Translations under genes and position numbers: made by a program
Notes under the pieces: model-generated
Database searches by the model: none
Told to the model about the DNA's origin: nothing
What the model saw: the letters and a program-made list of their open reading frames with translations, nothing else
In this document: positions 33,031-37,118 of the stretch, one piece after another
Layout: every line of letters begins with the position of its first letter
Numbering within the stretch: position 1 is the first letter of the stretch
From: Clostridiales bacterium
GTDB taxonomy: Bacteria; Actinomycetota; Coriobacteriia; Anaerosomatales; SLCP01
Reading direction: 5' to 3'
Length of the DNA stretch: 64,000 bases
Assembly: GCA_018333995.1 (NCBI GenBank)
Contig: JAGXSG010000008.1
Coordinates: 123,290-187,289 of the forward strand

Positions 33031-34743
33031 TTACTCCTCGGCCGGGAGCGCCTCGCCGGCGCGCTTCAGAGCCTCTCGGGCAAATTGTTCCGCATCATCC
33101 ATCGCATCGAAGACCTCGTCGAAGTTGTGGAACCCCATCGAGTTCTCTGACACGATGAGGTTCTCCCAGAGGACGTGGGCTTGCTGGTGTGCCTCGATGG
33201 CCGCTTCGTGCGCCGTCGTGTCAACGGTGCGACCGGCGTCAGTGGCTTCGCGCAGCGCGCCGAGCCGGGTGACCGAGAGCGCGAGCAACTCTTGAACGAT
33301 CTTCTGGCGTTCATAGACCGCCCGCTGTCCGGCGATTGCGTCGGCGATCCGGTTTCCGTGACACGTTTCGCACGGCCCCGTCCCGATGACCGCGGCCAAT
33401 CCGGTCGCTTGCGCGAATGCGCCGTACACGGCGGTGTCGTGGTACTTATAAGGGCTCGTCATCCAGTGGCTCCTGACCCACTCACCCGTCACGGAGCGCA
33501 CGCGGGGCATGTGGCATGAGACGCAGGTGGCGCCCGCGTTGTAGTGGACGCTGTTCCAAGCGAGCTCGACTTCGGGATGCTGGCTCTTGATGAGCGGCGC
33601 GCCGATTATCGCGTGCGTCCAGTCTTGCGCGTAGCCGAAGGTGCGCGAGTAGTGCTCGTGCAGATCACCGGCTTTCGCCCAACCGTAGTGGTCACGTACC
33701 ACGCCGTCTATTGCGCTCCTGCCGCACGTGTACTCGACGTGGCACTGGGCACACAGCAGAGTCTCGAGGTCTTTTCGCGAAGCGGAGGCGACGTCGTTCA
33801 CTATGTCAGGGGCGTAGGGGTTGACGCCGCCGCGGCCGTCGACACCGCCCGAGGCTATCGCGTCGGCCATAGCGGGCCGGATGAGGCGGAGCTCAGACGA
33901 GTGTGGATCGTGGCAGTGGTTGCAGCCGATGCCGTACGGCATGGTGTCTTTGGTGGTCGCGATAGTAGCCGCCCACAGCATGTCTCTGTGCTCGGCGGGG
34001 TCCTCACTTGCTGATGGCCGCGAAGTGTACACGCGTCCGTCGGGAAACACGGCGGTCGCACTCACCTCGTAGCTCTCGAAGTCGGTTGACAGGCTCACGA
34101 CGGTGCCTGCCGGTATGTCGACGGTCCGTGCAGGCGTGCCGTCACCTGCCGTGTGCGTGAGCTTGATGGAGGTGTCCGCGGGCACGGTGAGAGGTGTACC
34201 CGTGTGCCACGCCCACGCGACCTTGGTCGATTTGCACTGGAGGCACGTCTCGAACTTGGCGCGCAACGTCTCGTAGTGCTCTTCGAGCATCCACACGTGC
34301 GCGCCTTCCTCACGGTAGTCGCGTACGAAGCCGTGCCCGGCCACTATGGTGTTGTACTCGGGAAACTCCTCGACCTTGTGGATCGGCGGCACTCGCTGCG
34401 AACCGCCAAACGGTCCTACCTTCAGGTTGTCATCGTACAGATGCATCCCGGCGATGGATGAATGACACTCCGCGCAAGCGTCGACGCGCCAGTCGATAAC
34501 CGCGCGCACCCCCTCGGGGTCGGCTGCGTGGGCCTCGGCGTCCTCGTGGCACGTCGCGCATCCCGAAGCCGCATGGGGTCCCGCGGCGTACGCATCCACG
34601 TTATCGGCGTGACACTCACCGCATGCGGCGCGCGCGTCAGTCACAGCGACCGGCTCGTAGACCGCCTTTCCACACCCCGACATCGCTGCGGTCACGGAAA
34701 TCGTGGCAGCGAGCATGACGGCTACTCGAAGCGGTCCTCTCAT
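33031..34743 (-). CDS. Octaheme cytochrome c nitrite reductase-like lipoprotein
   Basis: 570 residues from the ATG at 34743 (GGAGG nine bases before it). The signal peptide ends in a lipobox with Cys24. Eight haem sites follow: CxxCH at 41, 62 and 90, CxxCK (CLQCK) at 167, then CxxCH at 274, 331, 407 and 458. A lysine-ligated fourth haem is the mark of octaheme nitrite reductases; pentaheme NrfA has it first. Tyr338 and Cys340 (CHVEYTC) match the cross-linked Tyr-x-Cys of the Thioalkalivibrio enzyme, and a QHPE motif (His389) supplies the likely active-site histidine. Expected reaction: nitrite to ammonium, possibly sulfite reduction. No NrfH-type quinol oxidase is adjacent. Confidence 0.88.
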   Translation of the reverse strand: MRGPLRVAVMLAATISVTAAMSGCGKAVYEPVAVTDARAACGECHADNVDAYAAGPHAASGCATCHEDAEAHAADPEGVRAVIDWRVDACAECHSSIAGMHLYDDNLKVGPFGGSQRVPPIHKVEEFPEYNTIVAGHGFVRDYREEGAHVWMLEEHYETLRAKFETCLQCKSTKVAWAWHTGTPLTVPADTSIKLTHTAGDGTPARTVDIPAGTVVSLSTDFESYEVSATAVFPDGRVYTSRPSASEDPAEHRDMLWAATIATTKDTMPYGIGCNHCHDPHSSELRLIRPAMADAIASGGVDGRGGVNPYAPDIVNDVASASRKDLETLLCAQCHVEYTCGRSAIDGVVRDHYGWAKAGDLHEHYSRTFGYAQDWTHAIIGAPLIKSQHPEVELAWNSVHYNAGATCVSCHMPRVRSVTGEWVRSHWMTSPYKYHDTAVYGAFAQATGLAAVIGTGPCETCHGNRIADAIAGQRAVYERQKIVQELLALSVTRLGALREATDAGRTVDTTAHEAAIEAHQQAHVLWENLIVSENSMGFHNFDEVFDAMDDAEQFAREALKRAGEALPAEE

Positions 34744-34834
34744 CGATCTGGTCCTCCCTCGCGGCCGGATTCCATGCAAGGCCGTAGATACTCGTGAGCG
34801 CAGGAGAATACGGCATCCGCTGCCAGCCGCCGGT

Positions 34835-36112
34835 CTACCGAGCCATTGCGAGCATCTCTTTGAGTCTTTTCCACGCGAGCCCCGCTCCTCCTACCGAGAA
34901 CCAATACATGACGTAGGTGGCACGCTTCATGATGATCGCGGGCACCCCGGAGATGTTCATGTTGAACATCCAGCCCACGCCCCAACGCGGGCCCACGCTC
35001 ACAAACTCACCGTGCATATGCGGTTTGAACACGACAGGACTCTCACCTCGCGCCTCGCGCATGATGTTCTCGGCGGTGTGCTCGCCTTCTCGAATCGCGA
35101 ACTGCGCGAGCATCGGCAGGATCTTGTTGTTCGCCGGATCCCTAAACGCCGCGACGTCTCCGATGGCGTAGATCTCGGGATGCCGAGGCGAGCGAAGGTA
35201 CTCGTCACAGACGAGCCGTCCCGAGCTGTCGAAGTCGAGCCCCCAGCTGATCGCGTCGGGATCCGCCTTCGCGCCTCCGCAGAAGACGAGCACCCGAGTC
35301 TCGATTCGCTCGCCTGATTCCAGCACGACGGCGTCATCATCTACCCGTTTGACCATCGAGCCCACGTATAGCTCGACCCCCATTCGCCGCAAGCGTTCCA
35401 TCGCGCGGACGCGCTGTGCTCGGGGCAGGTCGTAGAGGATCTCGGGCCGCCCTTCCACAAGCCGGATCCTGAGATCCGCGGGGTCAAGTCCCGCGTCTCG
35501 CGCACGGCGTGGAAGCATCTGGCCGAGGGTCCCGACGATTTCTATCCCTGTCGCTCCGCCGCCGATCACAGTGAAACACAGCGCCTTGGTACGGGCTGTC
35601 CTGTCCGAAAGGGTGGCCGCTCGCTTGAACGCCCACTCGATACGGCGTTGCAGCTCTTGCGCGTCGTGCACCGACCACATCGTGACCGCGCGCTCCGCGA
35701 GTCCGGGCACAGGAGGCACGAACGCGATCGCACCGGTCGCCAGCACGAGTCGCCAGTACTCCACACGCTGGCCGTTCTCGCCACGCTGACCAACGGTGAC
35801 CGCGCGTTGCTCGGCATGGACGGAATCGAGCCGGTTGTAGCAGACGGTCACCGGCAAGTCGCGGAAGACGGTGGGGTGCCACAGCTCGCAGAACTCCGGG
35901 CGGGGCGGTCCCACCGCGACGAGGTCGAGTTCGGAGAGCGCTTGCTGGCACGGGTTGGGCTCGATGAGGAGGATCTCGATGTCGTCGGATGGCCGCATCG
36001 AACGCGCGAGTCTGACGGCCAGTGTGGTTCCCCCGTATCCGCCTCCGGCGATGACCACTCGGCGGCGGGAACCTGGCTTTGCGCACTCCATTTGGGTGAT
36101 GTCTGTCATCAT
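34835..36112 (-). CDS. ndh: Type II NADH dehydrogenase (NDH-2)
   Basis: 425 residues. The FAD site GGGYGGTTLAVRLAR is near residue 23 and the NADH-binding glycine motif GGGATGIEIVGTL is in the middle. ATGAIAFVPPVPG and YAIGDVAAFRDP complete the two-dinucleotide fold. The C-terminal part (MFNMNISGVPAIIMKRATYV) is the amphipathic membrane-binding region. It passes electrons from NADH to menaquinone without pumping protons. The mqn genes in this window could supply the quinone. It is encoded just upstream of the nitrite reductase on the same strand, 91 bases apart. Confidence 0.9.
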   Translation of the reverse strand: MMTDITQMECAKPGSRRRVVIAGGGYGGTTLAVRLARSMRPSDDIEILLIEPNPCQQALSELDLVAVGPPRPEFCELWHPTVFRDLPVTVCYNRLDSVHAEQRAVTVGQRGENGQRVEYWRLVLATGAIAFVPPVPGLAERAVTMWSVHDAQELQRRIEWAFKRAATLSDRTARTKALCFTVIGGGATGIEIVGTLGQMLPRRARDAGLDPADLRIRLVEGRPEILYDLPRAQRVRAMERLRRMGVELYVGSMVKRVDDDAVVLESGERIETRVLVFCGGAKADPDAISWGLDFDSSGRLVCDEYLRSPRHPEIYAIGDVAAFRDPANNKILPMLAQFAIREGEHTAENIMREARGESPVVFKPHMHGEFVSVGPRWGVGWMFNMNISGVPAIIMKRATYVMYWFSVGGAGLAWKRLKEMLAMAR

Positions 36113-36222
36113 GCTCCTCGCACTCGGCTTACGTAGGCTTCTACCCGTTCGGCGTGCTGCGAGTTGTGGAACAAACCCCCAAGATGGCGTGTTACCGGTA
36201 CCACTCGCGACAAGGAGTTCTG

Positions 36223-36468
36223 ATGCAGATCATCGTGTTTGGTTTATCCACGTGTCCGTACTGTCGGATGACCAAGAAGTTTCTCGACGAGGCTGGTGTC
36301 GAGTATGAGCTAACTGAGGTAGACCTGCTCGATGGCGAGGAGAAGGAAGCCGCCGTAGCCGAGGTCAAGCGGCTTTCGGGTGGCACGTCTTTTCCGGTCG
36401 TGGTGGCCGGTGACGAAGTCATCGTCGGCTTTAACAAGAAGCGCATCAAGGAGTTGCTGGCAGGGTGA
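36223..36468 (+). CDS. Glutaredoxin-like protein
   Basis: 81 residues from the ATG at 36223, with AAGGAG upstream. The active site CPYC (Cys11, Cys14) follows a beta strand, and the TSFPVVVAGDEVIVGFNKKRI segment contains the cis-proline and glutathione-site region of glutaredoxin/NrdH proteins. It ends by overlapping the next gene (GTGA). Its likely partner is the FTR-Rieske fusion, which may reduce it. Confidence 0.92.
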   Translation: MQIIVFGLSTCPYCRMTKKFLDEAGVEYELTEVDLLDGEEKEAAVAEVKRLSGGTSFPVVVAGDEVIVGFNKKRIKELLAG

Positions 36469-37118
36469 GCGACCGGTCGGTGCGCATGCGATTCCATGAA
36501 GACACGACGGTCGAGGACCTCAAGGCGTACATGACTCCGTTTGTCGCGAGGCTCGGCTACGTGTTCAACGACGACGCGGAATTCGTGGATGAGGTGCTCG
36601 CAAGTGAGTTGGAGATCCTCGCCGAGACGGGCGACGTGTACTGTCCGTGCCGGGTGCGCACTGGGGATCCGAAAGCGGACTACAAGGTCGTCTGTCCCTG
36701 CATCCCGTTTTTCGCCGATGAGTTCGCGAAGCTGCGCAAGTGCTGGTGCGGCTTGTTTGTCATGCATGATGTCGAGGACGGGAGCGAGCTGCACGGCGTG
36801 ATCGAGGTGTCTCCCGGGCCCGCCGAGGTCCCGGTCGTTCCAGCTGACGAGCTGGCGCCCGGCGGTGTGCGCACTGTACGCGTCGGCACGCGGGAGATCG
36901 CGCTTGTAAGAGTCGGCGACGAGTTCTTCGCGCTTGGCAACGTGTGCCGTCACGCATTCGGGCCGCTCGGCCAGGGCTTCATCGATGGGTATGCGCTGAT
37001 GTGCCCGTGGCACGGGTGGCGTTACGATGTGCGCGACGGGAGTACCGACCACCCCGGCGCGGACGTCAAGACGTATCCGGTCGCGGTGCGCGGCGGTTAC
37101 GTCTACGTCACCGTGTGA
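36465..37118 (+). CDS. Ferredoxin-thioredoxin reductase catalytic domain fused to a Rieske domain
   Basis: 217 residues. Residues 10-105 match the FTR catalytic (beta) subunit: C60-P-C62, C77-P-C79 and C93-W-C95 supply four ligands for a 4Fe-4S cluster and a redox-active disulfide. Residues 120-217 are a Rieske 2Fe-2S domain with C161-x-H163 and C180-P-W-H183. FTR reduces thioredoxin-fold disulfides using one-electron carriers; the Rieske domain could deliver or receive those electrons. The gene is translationally coupled to a glutaredoxin, the likely substrate. The CPC-to-CPC and CPC-to-CWC spacings (14 and 13 residues) differ from plant FTR. The function of the fusion is inferred. Confidence 0.88.
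   Translation: MSDRSVRMRFHEDTTVEDLKAYMTPFVARLGYVFNDDAEFVDEVLASELEILAETGDVYCPCRVRTGDPKADYKVVCPCIPFFADEFAKLRKCWCGLFVMHDVEDGSELHGVIEVSPGPAEVPVVPADELAPGGVRTVRVGTREIALVRVGDEFFALGNVCRHAFGPLGQGFIDGYALMCPWHGWRYDVRDGSTDHPGADVKTYPVAVRGGYVYVTV

Follow-up and report, generated by a model that had tools for sequence, protein, structure and literature searches.

The window analyzed here, i.e., the whole stretch of 64,000 nucleotides, carries two overlapping genes that encode a glutaredoxin (Grx) and a protein in which the catalytic domain of a ferredoxin-thioredoxin reductase (FTR) is fused to a Rieske [2Fe-2S] domain (Table 1). Judged by its sequences, this gene pair represents the known Grx and FTR/FDR system in a variant form, with a Rieske domain taking the place of rubredoxin and the carrier being the new element. 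We consider it probable that the two proteins form a disulfide-reducing relay, in which electrons would run from a donor to the Rieske domain, on to the FTR center, and via Grx to the targets. The fusion and its Grx point to an undescribed route for electrons into protein disulfides.

Table 1. Features of the window and of the split gene cluster at locus L188 of genome G691.
Feature	Position	Strand	Basis
Glutaredoxin gene, 81 aa, CPYC (LSTCPYC)	36223..36468	+	ATG start; PF00462 E 8.6e-15
GTGA start-stop overlap of Grx and fusion genes (translational coupling)	36465..36468	+	ORF reading
FTR-Rieske fusion protein, 217 aa, GTG start	36465..37118	+	ORF and Pfam
FTR catalytic (FeThRed_B) domain, residues 16-107; C60PC62, C77PC79, C93WC95	36510..36785	+	PF02943 E 4.9e-18
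Rieske [2Fe-2S] domain, residues 122-205; C161-R-H163, C180-P-W-H183	36828..37079	+	PF00355 E 2.4e-17
NDH-2-type NADH dehydrogenase, divergent; context only	34835..36112	-	PF07992; PDB 4nwz E 2.7e-45
NrfA-related multihaem cytochrome; context only	33031..34779	-	PF02335 E 4.1e-47; haem motifs
G691, first Rieske gene	L188:5119-5421		DNA reading and Pfam
G691, Grx gene, CPWC	L188:5434-5679		DNA reading and Pfam
G691, FTR gene, CWC	L188:5689-6024		DNA reading and Pfam
G691, second Rieske gene, overlapping the FTR stop	L188:6017-6412		DNA reading and Pfam

An initial annotation of this DNA had described a CPYC glutaredoxin just 5' of the fusion gene with a GTGA overlap, and all six FTR cysteines together with an intact Rieske site in one protein. 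The former is borne out by the ORF coordinates, the latter by Pfam and by an alignment of 37 sequences. A ribosome binding site (AAGGAG, 36212-36217) precedes the ATG of the Grx gene. The nearest PDB structures of the Grx are 3ic4, 3nzn, 5cax, and the Grx half of 7pwe. The Pfam matches of Grx, FTR, and Rieske all lie well above their thresholds. None of the NCBIfam models scores above its cut-off for either protein, and the NrdH model TIGR02194 reaches 46.3 bits with the Grx, below its cut-off of 85.75. AlphaFold folds the fusion protein into one compact model (pLDDT 88.9, pTM 0.84).

The FTR domain scores 65.6 bits with PF02943, compared to a gathering score of 22. Its cysteines C60, C62, C77, C79, C93, and C95 as well as W94 are invariant among the 37 aligned sequences, and so are the Rieske ligands C161, H163, C180, and H183; since all ten cluster and disulfide residues are invariant, the combined pattern lies far beyond chance. 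By homology to known FTRs, we take C60, C77, C79, and C93 to be the ligands of the [4Fe-4S] cluster and C62 and C95 to form the active disulfide. The third cysteine pair reads C-W-C and not C-H-C as in plants and cyanobacteria, a detail absent from the initial annotation. The tryptophan occupies the position of a catalytically important histidine of plant FTR, and W94 may therefore be part of the adaptation. PDB matches of the FTR domain are 7pwe, 4tpu, and 2pvd; the first two are the closest solved FTRs and, as CYC members, also lack the histidine. The fusion is the sole FTR in the window's own genome. Four genomes of the order (G343, G345, G298, and G310; loci L183-L186) encode a second, divergent FTR of the CHC type (GWCHCTLFGR), separate from the fusion gene.

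With respect to the Rieske domain, both sequence and predicted fold place the best PDB matches among CarAc and the dioxygenase ferredoxins, the closest relatives being CarAc and the naphthalene dioxygenase ferredoxins. The fusion shares with these proteins (CarAc 1vck, NDO-F 2qpz, 5bok) the fold, the ligands, and the lack of the extra cysteine pair of bc1-type Rieske proteins, a pattern of the low-potential type. It differs from them in being joined to an FTR and in its genomic setting, as the window's own genome encodes no Rieske oxygenase. In the two genomes of the order that were searched, the window's own and that of the relative G131, no Rieske protein other than the fusion is encoded, so that no bc1 complex, b6f complex, or Rieske oxygenase is present to claim the domain. 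An assignment to a dioxygenase or bc1 system is thus ruled out for these two genomes.

The distribution of the fusion was determined by a pattern scan for the two-domain protein over 84,980 species genomes. Forty loci encode the same FTR-Rieske protein with 60-80% identity, and most of their records bear the names Coriobacteriia, Actinobacteria, or Anaerosomatales; the other 32 loci of the scan match by the Rieske part only, or nearly so. Of the 69 genomes in the order to which the window belongs, 60 match the profile. Two of these (G322 and G358) do so by the Rieske part only, and in a third (G320) the match is cut by a contig start; the fusion itself is present in 58 of the 69 genomes, and in 46 of the 51 of good quality. 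An assembly error joining two genes, a possibility named in the initial annotation, is ruled out because the protein recurs in these 58 genomes, one of which (G131) is assembled as a single contig of 1.8 Mb. No plasmid record with both domains covers 80% of the query.

Conserved linkage to glutaredoxin, proposed as a check in the initial annotation, was found throughout: wherever sequence upstream of the fusion gene is available, in 39 relatives, Grx lies directly before it; the one other relative begins at a contig end. With the window included, the overlap is GTGA in 29 and ATGA in 7 of the 40 loci that have a Grx (RTGA in 36/40 together). As no neighbor other than Grx is constant, the unit is the two-gene pair of Grx and fusion. 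Its hosts are a group of anaerobic subsurface bacteria in which the fusion is always encoded beside the small protein that is probably its substrate.

Partnership of Grx and FTR is well established beyond the order. An FTR occurs in 45 of 296 Actinomycetota genomes. Of the 30 loci read in Actinomycetota outside the order, 27 encode an FTR-rubredoxin, with a CYC, CYU, or CFC but not a CWC motif, and at 17 a Grx-like gene immediately precedes the FTR gene. For the phylum to which a 'Deltaproteobacteria' genome belongs, an upstream Grx was found at 25 of the first 30 FTR loci read, and the same holds for 48 of 61 further matches, a set of 61 that includes seven Nitrospira-phylum loci. Most surveyed FTR loci outside Actinomycetota lack any C-terminal carrier domain. 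Two proteins from the Nitrospira-phylum search (L243 in G414 and L244 in G371) are about 625 aa long and have a Grx-like part followed by an FTR(CYC) and a long C-terminal region.

Among solved structures, PDB 7pwe ('Ferredoxin-thioredoxin reductase subunit B') has Grx at residues 5-81 followed by FTR at 86-177, the same order as in the two genes described here, but with the Grx fused, a CYC motif, and no Rieske domain. PDB 4tpu, the Methanosarcina protein, combines an FTR core (CPC/CPC/CxC) with a C-terminal iron electron-carrier domain, as does the fusion, and both are linked to a Grx/NrdH-like redoxin. The two differ in the carrier, Rieske [2Fe-2S] instead of rubredoxin, and in the motif, CWC instead of CYC. 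This combination of FTR domain and rubredoxin in the Methanosarcina FDR is reportedly the subject of Wei et al. 2015 (cited in PMC9176816 and PMC11846895) and Prakash et al. 2018 (cited in PMC7278568), and its redoxin is reportedly tied to ribonucleotide reductase (RNR). Considering the common upstream Grx, the Grx-FTR order of 7pwe, and the FTR-rubredoxin of 4tpu, Grx and FTR are established partners, and iron electron carriers are already known to occupy the C-terminal slot. The catalytic subunit of plant and cyanobacterial FTR (PDB 1dj7, 2pvd) has the same six cysteines of the [4Fe-4S]/disulfide center, whereas the fusion carries Trp for the His of CHC and an added Rieske domain, is partnered by Grx rather than thioredoxin, and has no adjoining variable subunit.

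Independent support for the coupling of Rieske and FTR comes from genome G691, a member of another phylum, in which the same components occur as a split operon. Separate genes for Rieske, Grx, FTR(CWC), and a second Rieske, confirmed by Pfam, follow one another at L188:5119-6412, with 32-36% identity to the window proteins. Scanning all six frames of 152 FTR loci with the Rieske HMM, own locus included and the G691 locus entered twice, detected a Rieske domain near FTR only at these two loci and none at the other 149, which are of the CYC, CYU, CFC, and CHC types. In our sample, the link between CWC FTR and Rieske is therefore exclusive. The CWC FTRs form one clade in the tree (support 100/100), with a long G691 branch. 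Fused and separate-gene forms of one set are a classical sign of a functional link, and this one split example suggests such a link here. The first Rieske protein of G691 has the extra cysteine pair (CAHMAC, CPCH) that marks Rieske proteins of higher potential, and the second does not; a single FTR in G691 may thus be flanked by two carriers that differ in potential.

In the proposed relay, an external one-electron donor, either ferredoxin or an NAD(P)H-fed flavoprotein, would reduce the Rieske [2Fe-2S] domain, which would then transfer single electrons within the molecule to the [4Fe-4S]/disulfide center of the FTR domain, the two clusters presumably lying within tunneling range. The FTR domain would reduce the CPYC disulfide of the co-translated Grx, and reduced Grx would pass the electrons to its targets in the cell. 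The Rieske domain would take over the job performed in other FTR/FDR enzymes by rubredoxin or by the surface for free ferredoxin. Entry of electrons via the Rieske domain appears likely on comparative grounds, i.e., because of the split operon with its CWC motif, the lack of Rieske at 149 other FTR loci, and the status of the fusion as sole Rieske protein. The initial annotation had suggested a self-contained disulfide-reducing chain. The disulfide-reducing part agrees well with the Grx-FTR precedents (7pwe, 4tpu) and with the Rieske-FTR coupling in the split operon; 'self-contained' finds no support, as the locus encodes no dedicated donor and no gene for one is linked to the pair.

Low-potential Rieske ferredoxins have potentials of about -150 mV, above those of typical Grx and FTR disulfides, and transfer from Rieske to disulfide would therefore run uphill except with a donor pool that stays well reduced. 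Electrons might instead flow in reverse, with Grx thiols reducing the FTR center and the Rieske domain serving as a sink, such that the unit oxidizes thiols or senses the redox state. Apart from Rieske potentials usually exceeding those of Grx, this would fit the observation that other Rieske and rubredoxin carriers hand electrons to oxidants. However, those FTR/FDR relatives that have been characterized reduce disulfides, and FTR and FDR are redoxin reductases (PMC7278568). The sequences of both proteins lack an export signal, which makes an exported disulfide-forming role unlikely, and the cultivated members of the order are anaerobes (PMC9686372), for which there is little apparent reason to oxidize thiols. 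On balance, we regard reverse flow as unlikely.

Another reading gives the Rieske domain a role in docking or structure in place of the variable subunit of FTR, with ferredoxin still reducing the [4Fe-4S] cluster directly. The lack of a carrier domain in most surveyed FTRs outside Actinomycetota indicates that the FTR core works alone, and no gene for a variable subunit lies beside the Grx/fusion pair. Yet docking would not require the four Rieske ligands, which are invariant in all 37 sequences, and both free Rieske proteins of the split homologue retain intact ligands as well. A mere docking function is thus improbable.

The initial annotation had also stressed the position of the pair next to NDH-2 and nitrite reductase genes. 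These divergent genes are indeed present in the window, but a neighborhood survey of 41 loci found NDH-2 near the pair in only about eight and the cytochrome in four, ruling out a conserved link to either. A NirD-like nitrogen-oxide role together with these neighbors, for which their presence and a weak resemblance of the Rieske domain to NirD (TIGR02378, 49 bits vs. a cut-off of 74.65) might speak, is most improbable given that the neighbors are not conserved, Grx is the only constant partner, and the best Rieske matches are dioxygenase ferredoxins. The cytochrome itself, with seven CxxCH motifs and one CxxCK, is an eight-haem protein that resembles octahaem nitrite reductase rather than five-haem NrfA.

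Returning to the Rieske-fed relay, its wider meaning lies in the chemistry of the enzyme family. In FTR and FDR, an iron-sulfur cluster cleaves a disulfide in two one-electron steps, which is rarely seen, and the route of electrons to this cluster decides which metabolism controls the thiol pool. A Rieske domain in place of rubredoxin changes the donor and its potential, and would add a new type of acceptor for Rieske proteins. We see even chances that the fusion represents a new class of the FTR type, a Rieske-dependent glutaredoxin reductase, in which a Rieske [2Fe-2S] partner feeds a CWC [4Fe-4S] disulfide center, the two being joined in one bacterial order and having genes of their own in another phylum. 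Were this the case, the invariant Trp would be a signature of Rieske-fed FTRs, and the fusion would be, to our knowledge, the first Rieske protein with a protein disulfide center as acceptor. A literature search that did not cover the main FDR papers, so that an earlier mention is possible, found no description of an FTR-Rieske pairing. The fusion also offers a compact single-chain system for measuring cluster-to-cluster transfer, and tests are feasible because the order has cultivated members (PMC9686372).

The relay would not be the only disulfide route of its host, since the window's own genome also encodes a conventional thioredoxin reductase; one further Grx-like match is present there. 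No match to the anaerobic RNR NrdD was detected in this genome (G000, completeness 98.9%). A link to NrdD as for the Methanosarcina redoxin is thereby ruled out, and the role of feeding a class III RNR is inapplicable here.

Finally, TGA codons, possibly specifying selenocysteine, appear only at redox-active positions of FTR, as CYU in seven relatives and as CPU in one fusion; PMC9312934 lists FTRs that are selenoproteins with CxU. The CPU case is the fusion at L182 (G331:C9:3200-6300; minus strand, L182:990-1625), in which an in-frame TGA takes the place of the second Cys codon in a CPC motif. This codon is possibly selenocysteine or possibly an error in a low-coverage contig; the G331 genome has a tRNA-Sec, and a putative SECIS-like hairpin after the TGA folds about 0.9 SD better than shuffled sequences. 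The CYU cases are FTR-rubredoxins of other Actinomycetota (L079, L088, L092, L093, L100, L101, and L102) with TGA at the last Cys. These loci share a hairpin-forming stretch, CCCAGGAGGTCCTGG, about 15 nt past the TGA, which resembles a bacterial SECIS element.
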